Positions 21,251-49,700 of a DNA stretch of 64,000 bases are shown in pieces. The DNA comes from Petrosia ficiformis (Eukaryota; Porifera; Demospongiae; Haplosclerida; Petrosiidae). How positions within the stretch are numbered: position 1 is the first letter of the stretch; each line of letters opens with the position of its first letter. A program made the translations under genes and the position numbers. The notes under the pieces were generated by a model. The model saw only the letters and a program-made list of their open reading frames with translations. It was not told the DNA's origin and did not search any database. Where the stretch lies: positions 35,221,212-35,285,211 of the forward strand of contig OX345636.1 of NCBI GenBank assembly GCA_947044365.1, given 5' to 3'.

Positions 21251-38094
<16,844 letters not shown>

Positions 38095-38159
38095 TAAGTT
38101 AGCCAACTTATGCGCATGCGCATAACGCACAAACCCACGTGTAACCACGTGGTACCAAA
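38095..38159. promoter_or_regulatory. compact bidirectional promoter
   Basis: Only 65 bp separate the ATG at 38094 (minus) from the ATG at 38160 (plus). It contains TGCGCATGCGCA at 38111-38122, a perfect match to the palindromic NRF1 site. Two CACGTG E-boxes (38136-38141 and 38146-38151) are spaced exactly 10 bp apart, one helical turn. Both motif types are symmetrical, which suits divergent transcription. No TATA box is seen. Confidence 0.65.
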
Positions 38160-41100
38160 ATGCAGTCTTTCAATGTTGAAGTACTAATGCCACCTGGTAT
38201 AAGTAATACATCTAATAACTGCTTTGCCAGCAGTGTTATTCACTGCCTCTTTAACCATCCTGTTTTCTTGTCACTGTCATCAAAGATAACAGAAGATCAT
38301 CAGTTATGTACAAAGTGTGGAAGAAATGGTAACAAACATTACTCTGTTTATAATCAAAACAAAAACTGTACATGAAATTTATTAAAATTAGAACCATGTT
38401 TCTCAAACACTATTCAAAACTTGTTTGAGCAGTATAAATATAATAATACACCCACTGTACTTCAGTCCAAGTTATTCACTGAAACCCTGCAAAGTGAGAA
38501 AATACATGAATTATGAAATAAAGCAAATACTTTAAAAACAATTTTAGCAACACACCAATCTTTTATACCTGGGGTTTATCAAGATGCTCATGAATATTTC
38601 ATCCAGCTAATTGATAAACTACAAGGATTATCACCAAGGTCAGTAACATCACTCTTTACAGCACTGCTGAATTTAAAAAGTATTTGCTAATCTATAGATC
38701 AAAAGACTTCATACACAAGAAATTATTTGCTGAAGTAACTCAAACACGTTAGTGTATTGTAATAATAATGCATACTTTTTCATCACCGCATCTTAATTAA
38801 CCTTCAGTTACATGCAATAATTGTACACAAAGTAGTGTTACACAACAGATATCTAATGTGATCCAACTTAAAGCCAATGTGAGTCCCCCCAAAACCATAA
38901 TCTCTTGTGTTTTAAGGATATTTCTCATTAAGACAAGTAAAGAGATATCTTTACAAAACCTAATAACAGATGAACTATCTGATGAAGAAAAACTTTGTGA
39001 TTATACTTGTGGAGGGTATGATTTGACTCCTTTTAATACATCATATGTATACATGCACATGTACATGTAGGTGTGGAATGTCTGGAGAATGCTATAAATC
39101 ATCTAAGTTAAGTACACACCCAGACTTTCTACGTGTGCATATAACAAAACCAGGGTAAATATATGGAAAACAAAGTTTAAACATTTAATACATGTATGAT
39201 CTTTTTGCAGACCAAAGTCATCTTCTGTCCAATTACAGGTTAAAGTTTATTATTGATATTAAAACAGATTTACATGTTTTTATTCATAGAACACAACCCT
39301 CATTGTCAGTGGCAAGCTATATAAACTTGTAGGATTGGTTATATACATACAAAACGCAAGACATTATACCTGCTTTGTTCGCTCAAAATTGGATGCTACT
39401 CAGTGGTTTGACATAAATGATACTTCAGTTAGTTACAGAAAATAAATCAATATACATACATTAATGCATTATATACTATAGGTTACTCAAGTTAGTGTTG
39501 TTACCATTACAAAACAGGACCCTTTCATGTTGTTCTATGAGCTACATGAAGGTATAATTATAACCTAAACACCATGCATACCATCTTAATGTGAAAATAC
39601 ACATGGCTTTCTCATAACAGGCAATGGTTTAAAGACAACACTATCTCTGCCATCCACACACTGTCTTAATGCAGGTTGTTTTCTTTCTGATGAGGTACAT
39701 GTATAACTAGTATATAGTAAATAAATTAATTATAAATGACATTCTTTCAGATTATAAACTCGTATATGGACATTCTCTGCTACCATAGCTCAATGGTATA
39801 AACAATTACGATGTACATACACCACATATACTAAACAAATTCTTGTAACGCAGGCTGGGAAAAAAGTATTCACTTTGAGTTCTCTATTTTTTTCTAAACT
39901 ATGTTGTGATGGATATCAGGCAGTAGTTAAGTGGTATAGTAAAGTAAGGAGAAGCACACAATATAATATTATGTGAAGAAAACTCTTTAATACGTAGGTC
40001 AATCTGATGACATATGATTTAATCTTGTGCGTTATTAATCACCGTCAGAATCATTGGACGCTAATGGTAATACTCATACAATGCATTTCAGTAATTAAAA
40101 GTACTTCATGTCATGCATGTGTTCCCAAATAGGTTGTAGATATCAATAAGCAACAGGCAGAATATTTTGACTCGTACAAAAGCTCAGACGAATCGTATTG
40201 GACATGGCTAAAGTAATTTTATTAAAATTAATTCGATATACACAGTGAATCACTATATTCCACAGGTCATTTCTTGAGTTACGGTGTATAAACAATGGAA
40301 TTCCAGTACCAAACTGGAAGTGTTGGAGATACCTTCACAGAACAGTAAGAACGCATTATCTTGCACACACATAATAATTATGTAATATCAATCAAAGGAC
40401 CAGCCTATTCAAACTAATGGAACTGATTGTGGGGTATTTACAACTCAATTTGCACTGTGTCGTGTGTATGAGAGGAGTTGGGATTTTACACAGGTAGTAA
40501 ATTCGGTTATAAATGTATGAAAATTTATAAGCAATTATGTTACAGAATGATATGAATGTAATTAGAAAGATATTATTGGAGGAAATTCTTTGTGGACACT
40601 TGTTGTAAGTATACAAAAAACTGTATAATGTAAAATGACATAAGCCATTCTACGTTTAGAAATTTTGATGTAAGAACAAAAACAATTGGCGAATCTAATC
40701 TACACTCCCAACATCTTCTCTTCAGTTACAGTCAAAAGACAATAGAAAACCATTTGTTGTTAATGTAACTACAAAAGGTATACCAAAATAACAAATGATC
40801 AGGCTGCTTTTCAACACATCAAATTATGTCATGTTATATTTTTTTAGCCAAACCTGCTGACATTACGTCAATTTCACATAAAATGAAATATGCCAAAAAG
40901 ACTATTTCACAACACCCAAAACATCTATCACTTCATAAACACAAAAAATCAAATATTGAAGGACTTACATGTTCTTCTTGTGGGAAGGTCTATGCTCATA
41001 AAAGCAGTCTATCCAAGCACATTCGTAAAGAACACAGTCAGAACCAGAGTGGACATATCATCTGTAGTAAATGTGAAAAGAGGTAATAATAATTATAATT

Positions 41101-43452
41101 ATATATACATAGAATGACAACAGTTAATCTATTATTGTATTTAACTCTCTCTGTATTTGCATCAGAGTGACAACCTTACAAAAGTTAACAAATCATTTGG
41201 AGAGTGATCATCAATTGGAAATAGAAATTACAGACACCACTTTCGCAGACTATGCAGAATTTACTGTGTGGAAAGAAGACTTGGAGAGAGAAACACACTC
41301 ATCGTATGTGTTAAAATGTGCTCCGGTAGTGACACAGGAATACAGAGTATCATACTATTATTGCAATAGGTCAGGTAAATATAAACCCGAAGGTCATGGT
41401 AAGAGACAATTGAAGTCTCAAGGCTCAACAAAAATAGGGTTCCAGTGCTCTGCTTATATAAAAGTGTCTGAACACTTGGTAAACAAAAATGTATTTGTTA
41501 AGTTCTGTTCTACTCATTATAATCATGACTTGCAGTTGGCATATCTCAAAATGCCTGAAAAAACTAGACTAGAAATTGCAAACAAACTACATATGGGAGT
41601 AGATATACAACGTATACTAGATGATATTAGAGACACAAGTGAAGGTGGAATCAATCGAGAACATCTTGTAAATAGGCAAGATGTGAGAAATGTACGATTA
41701 CAGTACAACATTGAGGGCATAAGTAGACACAGCAATGATCTAAATAGTGTTAAAGCATGGGTAAATGAAATGCAGTCATTAGAGTACAACCCTGTACTCT
41801 TATTCAAGGAACAAGGACTTCTGCAACCAGAAGGTTTGGACAATTATGCGCAAGATGATTTTGTTCTGTGTCTACAAACGGCATTTCAAAGAGATATGTT
41901 AAATAAATTTGGTAGTGATACCATATGTATCGATGCTACACACGGTACAAATATGTACAATTTTTATTTAATTACTGTACTTGTTGTAGATGAATATGGA
42001 GAAGGTTTGCCCGTGGGATGGATGATAAGTAATAGAGAGGATTCTATAGCGTTAATTGAATTTTTTAAAGCCATTAAAATAGTTTGTGGTAATATTGCAC
42101 CAAAGTGGTTCATGAGCGACGATGCTGAACAATATTTCAATGCCTGGAGAGGGGTTTTCAGTGAAAATAAAACAAGTAAGCTGCTTTGTGTATGGCACAT
42201 TCATCAAGCATGGTGTAAGGCATTACATGATCACATTCCTGACAAGCAAGATCAAAGTAATGTGTATCATATGCTATGCGTACTCTTACAAGAGCATGAT
42301 GAATCAAAATTTAGAACCATGTTGCAAGCATTTCTAACTGAACTACACACTAAGCATAACAGATTTTATATTTATTTTAACACAACATACTGCTCCCGTT
42401 TGGCACAATGGGCAACATGTTACAGAAAAGGATGTACAGCTAATACAAACATGTTTGTGGAGTCATTTCACAGTGTACTCAAAGTAGTTTACTTGCATCA
42501 CAAGCAAAACAGACGTGTTGACTCCCTTCTTGTAACCTTGATAAAAATCGCTCGAAACAAGACCTTTGAAAGATTTCGCAAACTAGAAATGGGTAAACAA
42601 ACACACCGAATATGTGAAATTTCAAAACGACATCAAGCAGCATTATCACTTTCACCTACCTCTGCAACACTAGTAGCTGAAAATAAATGGAAAGTGAGAT
42701 CACAAAAAAAACCTCAGATGGAATACACAGTTGAAAAGTGTCATGAATCATGTCCCTGCAAGATTATTTGTCGTGAATGCAATATCTGTCCACACATTTA
42801 TAACTGTACATGTTTGGATGCCACATTACATGCCACAGTTTGTAAACATATACATTTCATACATATGCAAACTAACAGTAGTGGTACCAAAACACAACAC
42901 ATAACTCCAGTAGATTACTCATATTTTACTAACATACTATTTCAGAAGTCCAACAAGGGAGACTTAAATATGGCTAAAAGTAAACTATTAGCAGATCTGA
43001 AAGAACTGGAAACGTATGTCCAATCCTGCAATAAAATAGATATTTTAAATGCTACAAATAAACATATAAAAGCAGCTATTGCTATATCAAAGGCATTGCA
43101 AACTCAATCTGAAGAAAAGATTCTAGCTGTGAAGAGAAAGGTTTCTCCAAATGAAAACCACAAAACGCAACAGAAGTTCTTTTCTACAAAAAAGCCAAGA
43201 AATGCATCTACATCGGCACTTTCTAAACCATCTTTTATGGAAGTTGAAAACTGCCTCATAGAATTGAAGCAAAAAGAAGCTATGGTGTGTGGAAATTGCT
43301 TAAAAGAAAATGACATTAACCATAGTAACCAAGTGATACAGTGGATTCAATGCGATACATGTTCCATGTGACTACATCTTTCGTGTACCATACCAAAATT
43401 GACATTTTTACCACAATATTACACTTGTCATTTTTGCTGTACCACTGAATAG
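38160..43452 (+). CDS. USP-Ulp1-C2H2-MULE transposase-SWIM-PHD fusion (19 exons, three in-frame TGA)
   Basis: Exons: 38160-38638, 38698-38747, 38808-39015, 39071-39154, 39211-39238, 39290-39427, 39482-39551, 39621-39694, 39751-39795, 39854-39943, 39998-40066, 40133-40212, 40266-40344, 40398-40493, 40546-40604, 40660-40669, 40726-40777, 40848-41082, 41166-43452. Total 4233 nt (1411 codons), all joins in frame. The first seven exons are a USP protease: Cys box NTSNNCFASS, QDAHEYF, two CxxC-type zinc pairs, His box ARHYTCF, FDINDTSV. The next eight are Ulp1-like: FLSDEIINSYM, His in QNHW, Asp in YFDS, Cys in NGTDCGVF. Then come two C2H2 fingers, a FAR1-like zinc domain, a MULE DDE core (CIDATHGTN, FMSDDAEQ, MFVESFH), a SWIM finger (CTCxnCKHIH) and a PHD finger. 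Codons 72, 119 and 1384 are TGA; at 1384 the PHD family normally has Trp. The 10-nt exon is the weakest join. Confidence 0.75.
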
Positions 43453-43569
43453 TTAGCTTAAAGATTAATTTTACTACTTGTGTTATAGTTGTGTATAATT
43501 ATATAAATACATATACATAATTATATATATATATTGTATATATATATATATATATATATATAATTATAT

Positions 43570-43607
<38 letters not shown>

Positions 43608-43626
43608 TATATATATATATATATAA
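43453..43626. repeat. AT-rich flank with (TA)n microsatellite
   Basis: From about 43495 to 43626 the sequence is almost only TA repeats with ATTG interruptions, ending next to the fragment at 43627. Confidence 0.85.
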
Positions 43627-43920
43627 TGGCCTCAATCAGGCTAGAGAACGAAAATTAAATAAACCAGAGTACAATTACCTGATATCTGATTTAAAAGTTA
43701 TTGGATGGAGTCCATCTTACGACACTATTGAAATTGGATCATTAGGTCATTTGCCATCATCTTCTTTGGAAGCCATTTCACACATTGTCTCCCAAGACAG
43801 TTCTAGTTTGGTCACTTCCATCCTTCTTGAGGCTGCCAAGGTCGTTATTGCTTGTTCTCACCAAATATTCCTGGCACACAAACAAATTACCTGGTCCAGC
43901 TCCAGGCCCATGATAAATTG
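43627..43920 (+). pseudogene. retroelement tail fragment
   Basis: An open stretch carries LISDLKVIGW, then YDTIEIGSLGHLP. This resembles the segment after the reverse transcriptase in some invertebrate retroelements, where a basic stretch is followed by an 'xIEIGxLGH' motif. The match is from memory and the rest of the element is absent. It ends in a TGA at 43921 and has no start context. Confidence 0.35.
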
Positions 43921-44893
43921 AACCTATCGCAATTTGCAAATCTATTTATTATTTTCAACTTAAATAAGTATGTATATATATATATATTATCTTTCCCTTG
44001 CCATGCTCACTTTTTATCTTCTTTAGTTCTTCTAAGTTGTTAATGTGTACGCATGTGTCCGAGGACTCTTTATCCTATCTTTTGTTTTGGTTTTATATTT
44101 TATATTTTATATTTTATCTTTCAAAGGTATTTCTTTCCCCATATATAATTTATATATATATATATATATAATATACTATATTAAATATATATCATTATGT
44201 TATGTACAATATTATATACACAATATATATATATCTTATTTTCATTCGAGTTATACTTATTATTTACCTTTTCGTATATAAGAGACTCCAACACCACCAC
44301 GTCTGATCACATCTAAATAACCACGCCTAACAGGGCCCGCTCAGATCATATCATGGCCAATACAACCGGCCCACGTAATTAATTGGCTAACTTTCTCCGG
44401 CTAATGGCTAGTTTACTTACGTTGGTATCCATAAACACACTTCCTAGTCTAAGATGTGTGATCTTATCAGACGATTTTTCTACCTCCAGTCACAGCACAA
44501 ATAGTTATTCACGACCCAGTAATCCTAGATCTTCAGTAGCAGAAGATAATACTACATCGAGCAATTCTTAACAGCATACCATAGGTGTAAAGTTAGAAGG
44601 CTTGTACTCCTAATTTTGATTGCAAACCAAACCACGCCTATTAAAAATTGCTCTTCTACTCGCGAGACAAAATGAAGTTACGAAAAATAATTAACTAATA
44701 ATTATTAATTTACACACAATTATCGACTATATATGCAAATATGTGTGGGTGTTTCCGTTCTGTGCTTCCGTATGGCAAAAACTCGTGGTACGCATGCAGT
44801 ATTTCAGTTTTCTACACTGTTATTCTCTATATACCAGTCTCTACCGGTCTTTAGTAGTTTCTAGTAGTCTCTACCAGTCCTTACTAGTATAAG
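43921..44893. other. AT-rich spacer with fragment of exon-1 flank
   Basis: On the minus strand, 44421-44432 reads ATG plus three codons (MDTN) directly followed by GTAAGT. The flanking 44430-44550 resembles 47263-47330. So it is a piece of the same duplicated first-exon region as at 47.2 kb. Otherwise (TA)n tracts and no gene. Confidence 0.45.
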
Positions 44894-46183
44894 ATGGTTA
44901 GATCCTGCTGTGCCTTTGGATGCACAACAAGAGACTCTAGAGAAAACAGGCAAAAAGGCATTTCAGGATTCGTGCTGAGAGAAAAAAGCGCCTACGGTGG
45001 TTAAATGTAATCAAAAGGAAGAATTTCAATCCATCAACTAATGCTGCCATATGCAGCAAACACTTTGTTGGAGGTAAATGTATAAAAACATACCAAAATT
45101 ACATTGCCCCATAAGAAAGGAAAAGTGAAGACCCTGAGTCTCCGGCATATGTTCCTTCAATATTTCAATTTACTCCTTCTCCTGTGAAAAGGCAAGCAGA
45201 TGTAAGCCTAATGAGATATGAAACTGTGAAAAGAAGACAACTATCTAAAAGTGTAAATGAAAGAAACTGAGGATAATGATGATGTGAATAGTTGTGCTGA
45301 AACAACCAAATCAGTCGAAGTTCAAGCAACAAATTCAATGTCGTCAGATGAAGTTCAAACTGATTTGAATTTAATTAGTTCGCTACTCTTGAGCAAGACT
45401 GTCAGCAGGCATTAAAGAGAAAACCATATCCAACGCAGGAATGCCTCAAGGAAGACGAGAAACTGTTGACTTTTTATACAGGTTTGACAAGCGTAACAGT
45501 TTTCACAGCAGTAGTCAATTTTGTGTCATCGTAACTCCACAATCCTATAACAACAAGCTTACCAAATTTGAATGCTTTATACTTACTGTAATGAAATTGT
45601 TTCTTGGCTTGAGTAATTACAATCTTGTATTTCGATTTTCAATCTTCGGAGTCAACTGTTAGAAGGGTATTTGCAAAGTGGATCAGTGCTATGGACATTC
45701 GCTTGTCTCTTCTAATTAAGTTGCCAGATCGTGAAAGCTTACACACAACCATGCCCTTTTGTTTTCGTTGTCACTATGGTTTAAAAGTGGCATCTATAAT
45801 TGATTGTTTTGAATTATTCATATAGAAAAACTATCCAATCTTCTTGCTAAGGCTTGTACCAGGTCATCTTACTAGCATTACAACACAGCAAAGTATTTGA
45901 TTGGTATCACTCACAAGGGTAGAGTAAGCTACGTATCAAAAGGATGGGGTGGAAGAGTGTCAGATAAATACATCACTGAACATTGTGGTTATCTTAATAA
46001 CTTATTACCATGTGATGTAGTGCTTGCTGATAGAGGATTGGGGATGGGGAATTCTGTGGGTTTAATGGGTGCAACATTAGATATTCCTGCATTTACTAGA
46101 GGACGTGATCAGCTGACTGCAGGGGAAATTGAAAAGACTAGAAAAATTGCTAATGAGAGGATTCATGTAGAACGAATAATATG
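44894..46183 (+). pseudogene. decayed THAP/DDE transposase (ISL2EU-like), copy 1
   Basis: An ATG at 44894 opens a THAP zinc-finger start (SCCAFGC, later RLRWL and ICSKHF), with a frame break near 44960-44990. It is followed by DPESPAYVPSIF. A helix-turn-helix region (about 45560-45720) and an Asp-containing IIDCFELF strand come next. The best-preserved part is at 45897-46183: [27 protein letters not shown] and IHVERII, the DDE_Tnp_4 type core of THAP-bearing ISL2EU elements. Several frame shifts and a TGA end make it inactive. Confidence 0.75.
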
Positions 46184-46229
46184 AGTTATTCACCAAAGGT
46201 ATACTATTTTGTTAGTAACAGGGGTTCTT

Positions 46230-46502
46230 TCAAAAGACTTTGTAACTACAAAGGTTCATGAATGTGTCCTTTTGGATGCTGTTGTAAGAGTATGCTGCGC
46301 CTTGGTACCACTTGGTATTACAACTCTTGTTTTCACACCAGATCATTTGACCACCTTTGGCTCGTTTACAATAACACCATGTGCCAATGTCATCTTCAGG
46401 GTCATTATCTAGAACACCACGAGGCACTTCAATAGAATGCTTTCTTGTAAACCACTTCCTGTAAAGTTCAAGAAGCACACACAAGTTTAAAAATTTTTCC
46501 AC
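46230..46502 (-). pseudogene. PHD-finger fragment convergent with transposase copy 1
   Basis: The minus strand encodes CYCKRAKGGQMIWC, then CNTKWYQGA, a PHD-type finger in which the later His and Cys ligands are lost. In ISL2EU elements a second gene (YqaJ-like nuclease) lies opposite the transposase and can end in such a finger. That it is the tail of that gene is inference from placement. No YqaJ domain is readable to the right. Confidence 0.5.
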
Positions 46503-47174
46503 AATTGTAATTTTATCCTAGAGTAAATCTTCATTGCTGGTGAGTCGTTCCATATGTAGGTCTACCTCTGTCCAGATAACAAAGTCAAAGTAGAGCCTTT
46601 TAGTGACATAGATTTGCAACTGGCATTGATAATAATAGGTATGCTCATGCTATTGATGTATATAAAGTTCCATCATCCGATTTTGATAGGCAAAATGTAC
46701 TTGACTCAGATGCTGACTCTATACTACTAAATGTTGTGCAAAATGGCTGTAACAGAACGATATCTATACTTGTGCTAGTACTTTTACTGATATCAAATAC
46801 TATTCAAAAGCAAAAAATGCCCTTATTTCAATATACAGAACAAAAATCTTCTAGAACATTCTAGACATGACCTATCTAAATTAAAGAAAAAAACAAGAAA
46901 CTAATCAAAGAGGTGACAAGGTATGATATAATGATACAGAAAAAACAAGAACCTTCCAGAAACTAATCAAAAAGGTGACAAAGTATGATATTACAACTGT
47001 AATGATATAGAACCAATAAATGATGTTTAAAACATATACATTCAACATAAACTAATATACATCCTTATCCAATGAACAGTATTACACAACTACATGTATC
47101 AACACTTTGCAATGCTGCCATAACTCACGGTGGGATGCGAATACAAAATTCACGATACTATTTAAAGTACTTAC

Positions 47175-47265
47175 AACTCTTATTTCCAAGTGCTTGTTGA
47201 AGCAACATCTGTCGATTACGAAACTCATTTCCCCAAGTTCTACTATTACTTGCGTTGGTATCCAT
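47175..47265 (-). pseudogene. orphan copy of the cassette gene's first exon
   Basis: From an ATG at 47265, 30 codons plus one base lead to a GTAAGT donor, the same phase as the first exon at 37998-38094. Both contain W-N-FR-RQML-QA. The intron side (about 47082-47174) also matches 37908-37997. No matching second exon was found downstream, so it is a duplicated fragment rather than a whole gene, although the open frame and donor are intact. Confidence 0.65.
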
Positions 47266-47374
47266 ACACACACTTTCAGTCACAGCCACTAATAGTTATC
47301 GCAATATCTTCAGTAGCAGAAGGTCTGCAATAGGCGTGGCAGTTACGTGGGCAGGTTTCCTGTCTGCCATATTG

Positions 47375-49184: not shown

Positions 49185-49700
49185 TATTAGCATTGACATC
49201 CACAGAAAAACAGACACTCTTTTTTCAGTAAACAACATGACCACAGCTGGACTTGAACCACTGACCTTTTGATCAGGAGGCTCAAGCTCCAACCACTAAG
49301 CCACACTGCTTCCTTAAAAAAAAAAAGAGTGTCCATCAAACTTAAAGGGTCCACTTTGGAAATTGTGGTCTTTCCAGTCGATTCGTGGGACTTACCACTC
49401 TGTGGATTCTGACGGCACTTTAGGTTAGGGGGTTATAATAGAACTTCGGTTCCCCACAACTGTTAGGACTTCGGTCTTATATACACACTTGTGTGTATAT
49501 ATATGTTGTTGTTAGTCATTCCCATCAAATAGTCCCAGTTTGTTGGGCACTCTTTTTTTAAGGAGGCAGCGTGGCTTAGTGGTTGGAGCTTGAGCCTCCT
49601 GATCAAAAGGTTGGTCAGTGGTTCAAGTCCAGCTGAGGTCATGTTGTTTCCTGAAAAGCGAGTGTCTGTTTTTTTGTGGACTTCAATGCTAATATAACAC
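49185..49700. mobile_element. head-to-head pair of tRNA-derived SINEs forming a fold-back
   Basis: The minus-strand copy (about 49190-49316) has box A at 49293-49304 (GTGGCTTAGTGG) and box B at 49249-49260 (GGTTCAAGTCC). The plus-strand copy (about 49557-49700) has box A at 49571-49582 and box B ending at 49630. Both continue into the same 3' tail (GAGTGTCTGTTTTT, then ATGCTAATA). The heads face each other across about 240 bp of other sequence. Confidence 0.8.

Follow-up and report, generated by a model that had tools for sequence, protein, structure and literature searches.

The 64,000-nucleotide stretch analysed here (hereafter the window; C1:35221212-35285211 in the 191.2-Mb, 29-contig genome of the sponge Petrosia ficiformis that we searched) carries at positions 38086-44412 a copy of a Mutator-like transposon (MULE), a mobile element rather than a host gene. 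Its single gene encodes, in this order, a USP-type protease domain, an Ulp1/SENP-type protease domain, two C2H2 zinc fingers, a MULE DDE core, a SWIM-type zinc motif and a PHD-type finger, an order which the original prediction had given, and which was confirmed here and recurs at independent loci. The window copy belongs to family A; a second family, B, has a protein that shares 52% identity with that of the window. Other copies are named below by their locus numbers, and the features of the locus, in window coordinates, are as follows.

38078-38085, no strand: left target-site duplication TTACTTAC, 8 bp, from the alignment of copies
38086-38106, + strand: 5′ terminal inverted repeat (TIR), lacking 9 bases found in copies L009, L027, L012 and L019
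38160-43452, + strand: transposase gene of 22 exons and 1353 codons, with one nonsense codon inside the frame
38187-39622, + strand: USP (peptidase C19) domain; Pfam UCH 1.2e-17, weak PDB match to USP36 (4.8e-9)
39647-40660, + strand: Ulp1/SENP (peptidase C48) domain; Peptidase_C48 6.9e-17, PDB match to SENP1 (1.2e-26)
40961-41214, + strand: two C2H2 zinc fingers, with an intron interrupting the second; zf-C2H2 1.3e-5 on 40841-41083, the second recognised by eye
41326-41535, + strand: FAR1/WRKY-like DNA-binding region; FAR1 at 18.4 bits (E 0.0036), below the cut-off of 28.1
41854-42486, + strand: MULE RNase H-like DDE core (D848, D910, E1024); MULE (PF10551) 1.8e-12
42751-42867, + strand: SWIM-type zinc motif CxC...CxH; motif columns invariant in 36 sequences including the window
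43285-43449, + strand: PHD-type finger, interrupted by the nonsense codon; PHD model 0.01 in family B and 4.4e-6 in the relative P0041
43369-43371, + strand: nonsense codon TGA in the PHD finger, from comparison with family-A copies
43453-44382, no strand: non-coding 3′ part with AT-rich simple repeats
44383-44412, - strand: 3′ TIR
44413-44420, no strand: right target-site duplication TTACTTAC
47038-47281, + strand: empty site, a related sequence without the insertion, in the same window

Rebuilding the exon chain reproduced exactly the gene ends predicted at 38160 and 43452. The predicted 19 exons, separated by 18 introns of 51-83 bp, proved to be GT-AG throughout and consistent in phase, but three introns had been missed, and the frame described as continuous contained three in-frame TGA codons. 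Introns 38329-38391 and 38494-38547 each remove one TGA and restore the frame, and both intronic TGA codons are also present in copies L009 and L027. The third missed intron (38879-38932, 54 bp) contains no stop; we treated it as an intron because family B has one there and because a protein of the sponge Halichondria panicea lacks those residues. The corrected model thus has 22 exons, 1353 codons and one nonsense codon. The fusion gene predicted at 38160-43452 was partly confirmed. The remaining TGA reads TGG in all four other aligned family-A copies (L009, L027, L028 and L010). Decoding of TGA as tryptophan was rejected, since two of the three TGA codons are intronic and the third is TGG in these four copies. 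The same PHD tryptophan is replaced by TGA in the family-B copy L013 (C1:60.68 Mb), apparently independently. At 40660-40725, a sequence that is exonic in family B (QFNVR/NFDVR) seems to have turned into an intron in family A, leaving a 10-bp exon.

The key residues that had been reported as readable in both proteases and in the transposase were found in the catalytic motifs of the window gene. The USP domain retains Asn16, Cys21, His251 and Asp270, plus two CxxC pairs, and the Ulp1 domain retains His384, Asp401, Gln446 and Cys452, which we take to be the catalytic residues of the two domains. The four Ulp1 residues are invariant across the window, family B and the Halichondria protein. By sequence comparison with solved structures, the Ulp1 domain was clearly nearest to SENP1, and the USP domain weakly nearest to USP36 and to chains named Ubiquitin carboxyl-terminal hydrolase 8. 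Pfam scanning of the spliced 5′ part, made with the 19-exon model with X at stops and the three missed introns retained, also matched zf-C2H2. In the last exon, Pfam matched MULE and a ZSWIM1-3 RNase H-like domain (6.3e-10), with FAR1 below its cut-off and no match of the Pfam SWIM model in the window protein itself. The D, D and E of the core are invariant in the 36 sequences including the window. The predicted structure of the transposase (pLDDT 78.9) was nearest to the ISCth4 transposase (E 1.0e-5), with low TM scores of 0.25/0.40. With the presumed catalytic residues in place, both proteases may be active as deconjugases.

MULEs characteristically generate target duplications of 8-11 bp; many of them, though not all, have TIRs, and SWIM or FAR1-like zinc modules are common without being universal. 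The elements described here have the DDE core, 8-9-bp duplications and TIRs, except for a distant lineage, D, in which TIRs were looked for and none found. Alignment of copies placed the ends of the window element at 38086 and 44412, and the sequence at 47038-47281 continues through the insertion junction with the element absent. The TIR of family A (L009) reads A(G/C)TAGCCATTAGCCGGAGAAAGTTAGCC and that of family B reads GACAGCCATTAGCCGGAGAAAGTTATCC. A TIR 22-mer gave 49 matches genome-wide (26 on the + and 23 on the - strand), compared to none for the reversed control. By eye, these matches were paired into 22 elements, and the window copy, whose 5′ TIR escaped the pattern, was added as the 23rd; four matches found no partner, including two at L027 and L028. 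Exact target duplications of 8-9 bp flank 16 of the 23 elements, with 9 bp in 13 cases, and none of 506 mismatched flank pairs reached 7. USP or Ulp1 matches lie inside 21 of the 23 paired elements and MULE matches inside 10, as compared by eye from coordinates. The transposon reading of the original prediction, and the check it proposed for TIRs and 8-11-bp duplications around other copies, were borne out by the TIRs, the duplications, the empty site, the many copies and an intact second family. With part of its 5′ TIR lost and a stop in its PHD finger, the window copy has probably ceased to be fully autonomous. A 22-base TIR stretch agrees between families A and B, although the proteins differ as much as stated above, and cross-mobilisation of the two families is therefore possible. 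A strong target preference was considered and rejected: L009, L012, L028 and L031 abut one and the same repeat, but this repeat is abundant (1472 copies, counted with a 25-mer at 3 mismatches or fewer).

Copies of both families retain the proteases together with the transposase. In family A, L009, L027, L028 and L029 have USP and/or Ulp1 with MULE parts and carry internal deletions or insertions, L010 retains the zinc finger and MULE only, and L065 is an old copy. The family-B copy L012 has an intact frame from USP to PHD (21 exons, 1417 aa) inside its own TIRs; one stop interrupts its duplicate L013, and five interrupt L019. A frameshift and a stop suggested for family B by the aligner output were explained by an intron with the donor GTGAGT and by a 42-nt intron. 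Both ends of the deletion derivatives L030 and L031 (2.1-2.3 kb) match family B, and the start of USP and the end of PHD survive in them; L061 and L064 are decayed fragments resembling B. Family C (L062), in a guided reading with 8 frameshifts and 2 stops, contains USP, Ulp1, the zinc fingers and the beginning of the MULE part. The proteases are not chance neighbours of the transposase, the order being shared by divergent families. No stand-alone USP-Ulp1 host gene was recognised among the match places L061-L065, L027 and L028 outside the paired elements, a search that left out the places at C13:2.69 and at C1:26.30, 30.37, 46.49, 53.90 and 54.67 Mb. A genome scan with the Pfam C48 model returned 11 places, not including the window, whose Ulp1 exons are short. 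L012 (C1:56.71 Mb) and L013 share 9601 bases at 99.9% identity, including flanks, with 8 differences and at 4 Mb distance; they represent either a recent segmental duplication or an assembly duplication.

Both protease regions are conserved between families A and B. The proportion of synonymous differences (pS) between the window and family B was 0.58-0.91 by region, near saturation. The corresponding nonsynonymous proportion (pN) was 0.243 for Ulp1 (bootstrap 0.195-0.299), 0.227 for the DDE core (0.185-0.266), 0.354 for USP (0.314-0.392) and 0.537 for the linker (0.454-0.625), indicating that Ulp1 and the transposase core are equally constrained, with weaker constraint on USP. A cruder gene model, used in a previous run, led to the same result.

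The protease pair also occurs in distant MULEs of the same genome, which are 38-44% identical in the transposase and have USP followed by Ulp1 upstream of it (L014 and L018). In a tblastn search, none of 11 sibling loci showed proteases at E 1e-3, which suggested distant MULEs without proteases; spliced alignment and Pfam overturned this for L014 and L018, and in part for L023 and L025. Spliced alignment covered four of the 11 loci (L014, L018, L023 and L025; L015, L016, L020, L021, L022, L024 and L026 were left out), each run having one reverse-complement and four shuffled controls, which matter because the translations were guided and because those of L014, L018 and L025 are interrupted by stops or a frameshift. 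Scores were 205-250 for L014 and 194-200 for L018 compared to 53-84 for the controls, with weaker, partial alignments at L025 (105-118 against 53-89) and L023 (112-114 against 56-84). Pfam matched UCH (2.9e-32) and C48 (1e-17) at L014 and UCH (2.1e-25) and C48 (2.7e-14) at L018; recovery was partial at L025 (C48 2.8e-13, from Ulp1) and L023 (UCH 2.1e-17, the USP start). L014 and L023 lie on different chromosomes and are 94-99% identical from the USP start to past the MULE part, L023 lacking the middle. In an unrooted tree of 32 transposases, most of whose rows are uninformative upstream of the transposase, a fully supported branch separated A/B from D (L014 and L023), E (L018) and F (L025). 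The annotated relative P0095, with Ulp1 and without a USP match, fell on the A/B side, as did P0106, which has an Ulp1-like stretch by eye and in which Pfam matched no protease. The common order would favour one origin of the protease pair, with which the tree is compatible.

On balance, we favour the interpretation that these elements form a family of cut-and-paste Mutator-like transposons whose single gene joins the transposase to N-terminal USP-type and SENP-type proteases acting at the element ends. The presence of SENP-like, USP and DNA-binding modules in one gene suggests that SUMO and ubiquitin are removed locally, at the ends or within the transpososome. Guided to the ends by its FAR1-like and C2H2 parts, the protein would act there on the transposase itself and on proteins of silencing, chromatin or repair, its SENP domain stripping them of SUMO and its USP domain of ubiquitin. 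The element would thereby escape SUMO-dependent silencing, or its breaks would receive favourable repair. The predicted removal of ubiquitin and SUMO from host chromatin proteins may be part of this activity, and the earlier interpretation of the fusion and transposon as a whole was partly supported. In C. elegans, SUMOylation has been linked to Argonaute/piRNA silencing (PMC8131101, PMC8131105), and Ulp1 and OTU domains have been proposed to aid transposition via DNA repair (PMC2836005). A more far-reaching reading, which we consider rather unlikely, is that the dual-protease MULEs are an ancient animal lineage with its own SUMO and ubiquitin erasers, delivered by the transposase to its own DNA and countering SUMO-dependent (piRNA-guided) silencing. 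Should the proteases indeed work against SUMO-dependent silencing, an early-branching animal would harbour a transposon that encodes its own anti-silencing enzyme. More generally, the two domains may help the element to act on, or escape, host protein-tagging controls, and the two activities of the USP and SENP-type pair, which keeps a fixed order in several lineages of this genome, lend themselves to separate assay and mutation.

Several observations weigh against the interpretation we favour. The exon chain was read from genomic DNA alone, and its weakest link in the window is the 10-bp exon at 40660-40669, which lies between the Ulp1 and zinc-finger parts. A set of 5.8 billion proteins contained no full-length fusion, each of its five matches having only PF02902 as precomputed domain. 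The Halichondria protein ends with Ulp1, and its USP part is missing the Cys box. At L063, a USP part stands with no Ulp1 or MULE match within its 7 kb, L014 and L018 are broken copies translated under guidance of the window and B proteins, and lineage D yielded no TIRs, as mentioned above. Exact duplications are absent from 7 of the 23 elements (L012, L013, L019, L031, L032, C1:49.39 and C12). USP is less conserved than Ulp1 between the window and family B, and we know of no substrate for either protease of the element.

Some of these points bear on whether one element makes two proteins, one with USP-Ulp1 and the other a C2H2-MULE transposase, either from two genes or through alternative splicing. 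The linker is the least conserved region and requires the 10-bp exon in family A, and the Halichondria protein terminates exactly at the Ulp1 end. In L012, however, the linker lies within one open 299-nt exon that is in frame at both sides, families B and C have a common linker motif (PxPxGFxY...LHxPLISK, by eye), and in the window about 220 bp lie between the last Ulp1 exon and an in-frame ATG 5′ of the fingers. We regard two proteins as unlikely, and a single polypeptide from USP to PHD as likely. It is also rather unlikely that the proteases mainly spare the transposase itself from degradation and are not aimed at host silencing or repair factors: they share its frame, and a simple role in cis requires no targeting, yet this would leave both the two different modifiers and the intervening DNA-binding modules unexplained. 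Passive capture of host gene pieces (transduplication) accords with the reported acquisition of host gene fragments by MULEs (PMC6446971) and with the lesser conservation of USP. It is nonetheless very improbable, as order and catalytic residues are kept between A and B despite near-saturated synonymous divergence, Ulp1 conservation equals that of the DDE core, and families A, B and C have the order in common with the distant L014 and L018. A domesticated host gene, offered as the alternative in the original prediction and compatible with the long open frame of the window copy, is hardly credible: the window copy has a nonsense codon, TIRs, target duplications and an empty site, and the genome contains 23 paired elements as well as copies in decay; a domesticated MULE-derived gene would have no TIRs, few copies and an intact frame.

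To our knowledge, no role of deconjugating proteases in DNA transposons has been proven. The gene differs from Kaonashi (KI), for which Hoen 2006 is cited, in its sponge host and its SENP1-like Ulp1 domain. Kaonashi elements are likewise MULEs with peptidase C48, but are plant elements with an Ulp1 described as distant from true SUMO proteases, and the passages of PMC6117577 on them do not mention USP. The original mention of Ulp1-MULEs in plants was too narrow, Mutator transposons of hydra and lancelet as well as plants encoding Ulp1 (Repbase reports via PMC2836005); those of hydra and lancelet share an animal MULE transposase and Ulp1 with the window gene, and USP is unmentioned in that source's account of them. 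P0095 similarly combines Ulp1, C2H2 and MULE, with an Ulp1 region barely similar to that of the window by BLAST. Deconjugating proteases recur in DNA transposons (PMC2836005). Ginger1 includes animal DNA transposons with OTU or Ulp1 and at times PHD, but has a Gypsy-integrase-type core with a GPY/F motif and a C-terminal protease according to that source; the window gene, with its MULE core and N-terminal proteases, does not belong to Ginger1 (no search for GPY/F was made). A Trichomonas protein named in PMC2836005 has Transposase_11 and Peptidase C19 and so resembles the window gene in joining a transposase to a USP-type domain; it belongs to a different transposase family and a protist, with Ulp1 unmentioned in that account. 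Rehavkus has a PHD finger, a 9-bp duplication and a minisatellite before the 3′ TIR (PMC6446971), to which the PHD-like end, 9-bp duplications and AT-rich simple repeats before the 3′ TIR of the window family compare by description only. The Halichondria panicea protein (LOC135340729 isoform X3, P0121; 458 aa) has USP then Ulp1, at 39-40% identity, and no transposase part in this isoform. The main text of the MULE survey PMC6446971 does not contain the words protease, peptidase, Ulp1, Porifera or sponge, and a scan of viral contigs confirmed no viral relatives. The claim that no animal protein with USP, Ulp1 and MULE was known held among the literature matches listed, in which no such report occurs (a search outside Repbase and most subscription papers). 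Published accounts do exist of animal Ulp1-MULEs and of a protist USP-transposase.

Two neighbouring stretches contain other repeats or gene remains. Just downstream of the element, 44894-46412 holds broken-frame remains of coding sequence, presumably of a THAP-domain gene and another DDE transposase. Further on, 49185-49694 contains large near-perfect inverted repeats (82 nt at 91% and 59 nt at 97%), part of which we take to resemble a tRNA-derived repeat, possibly two inverted copies of a short interspersed nuclear element.

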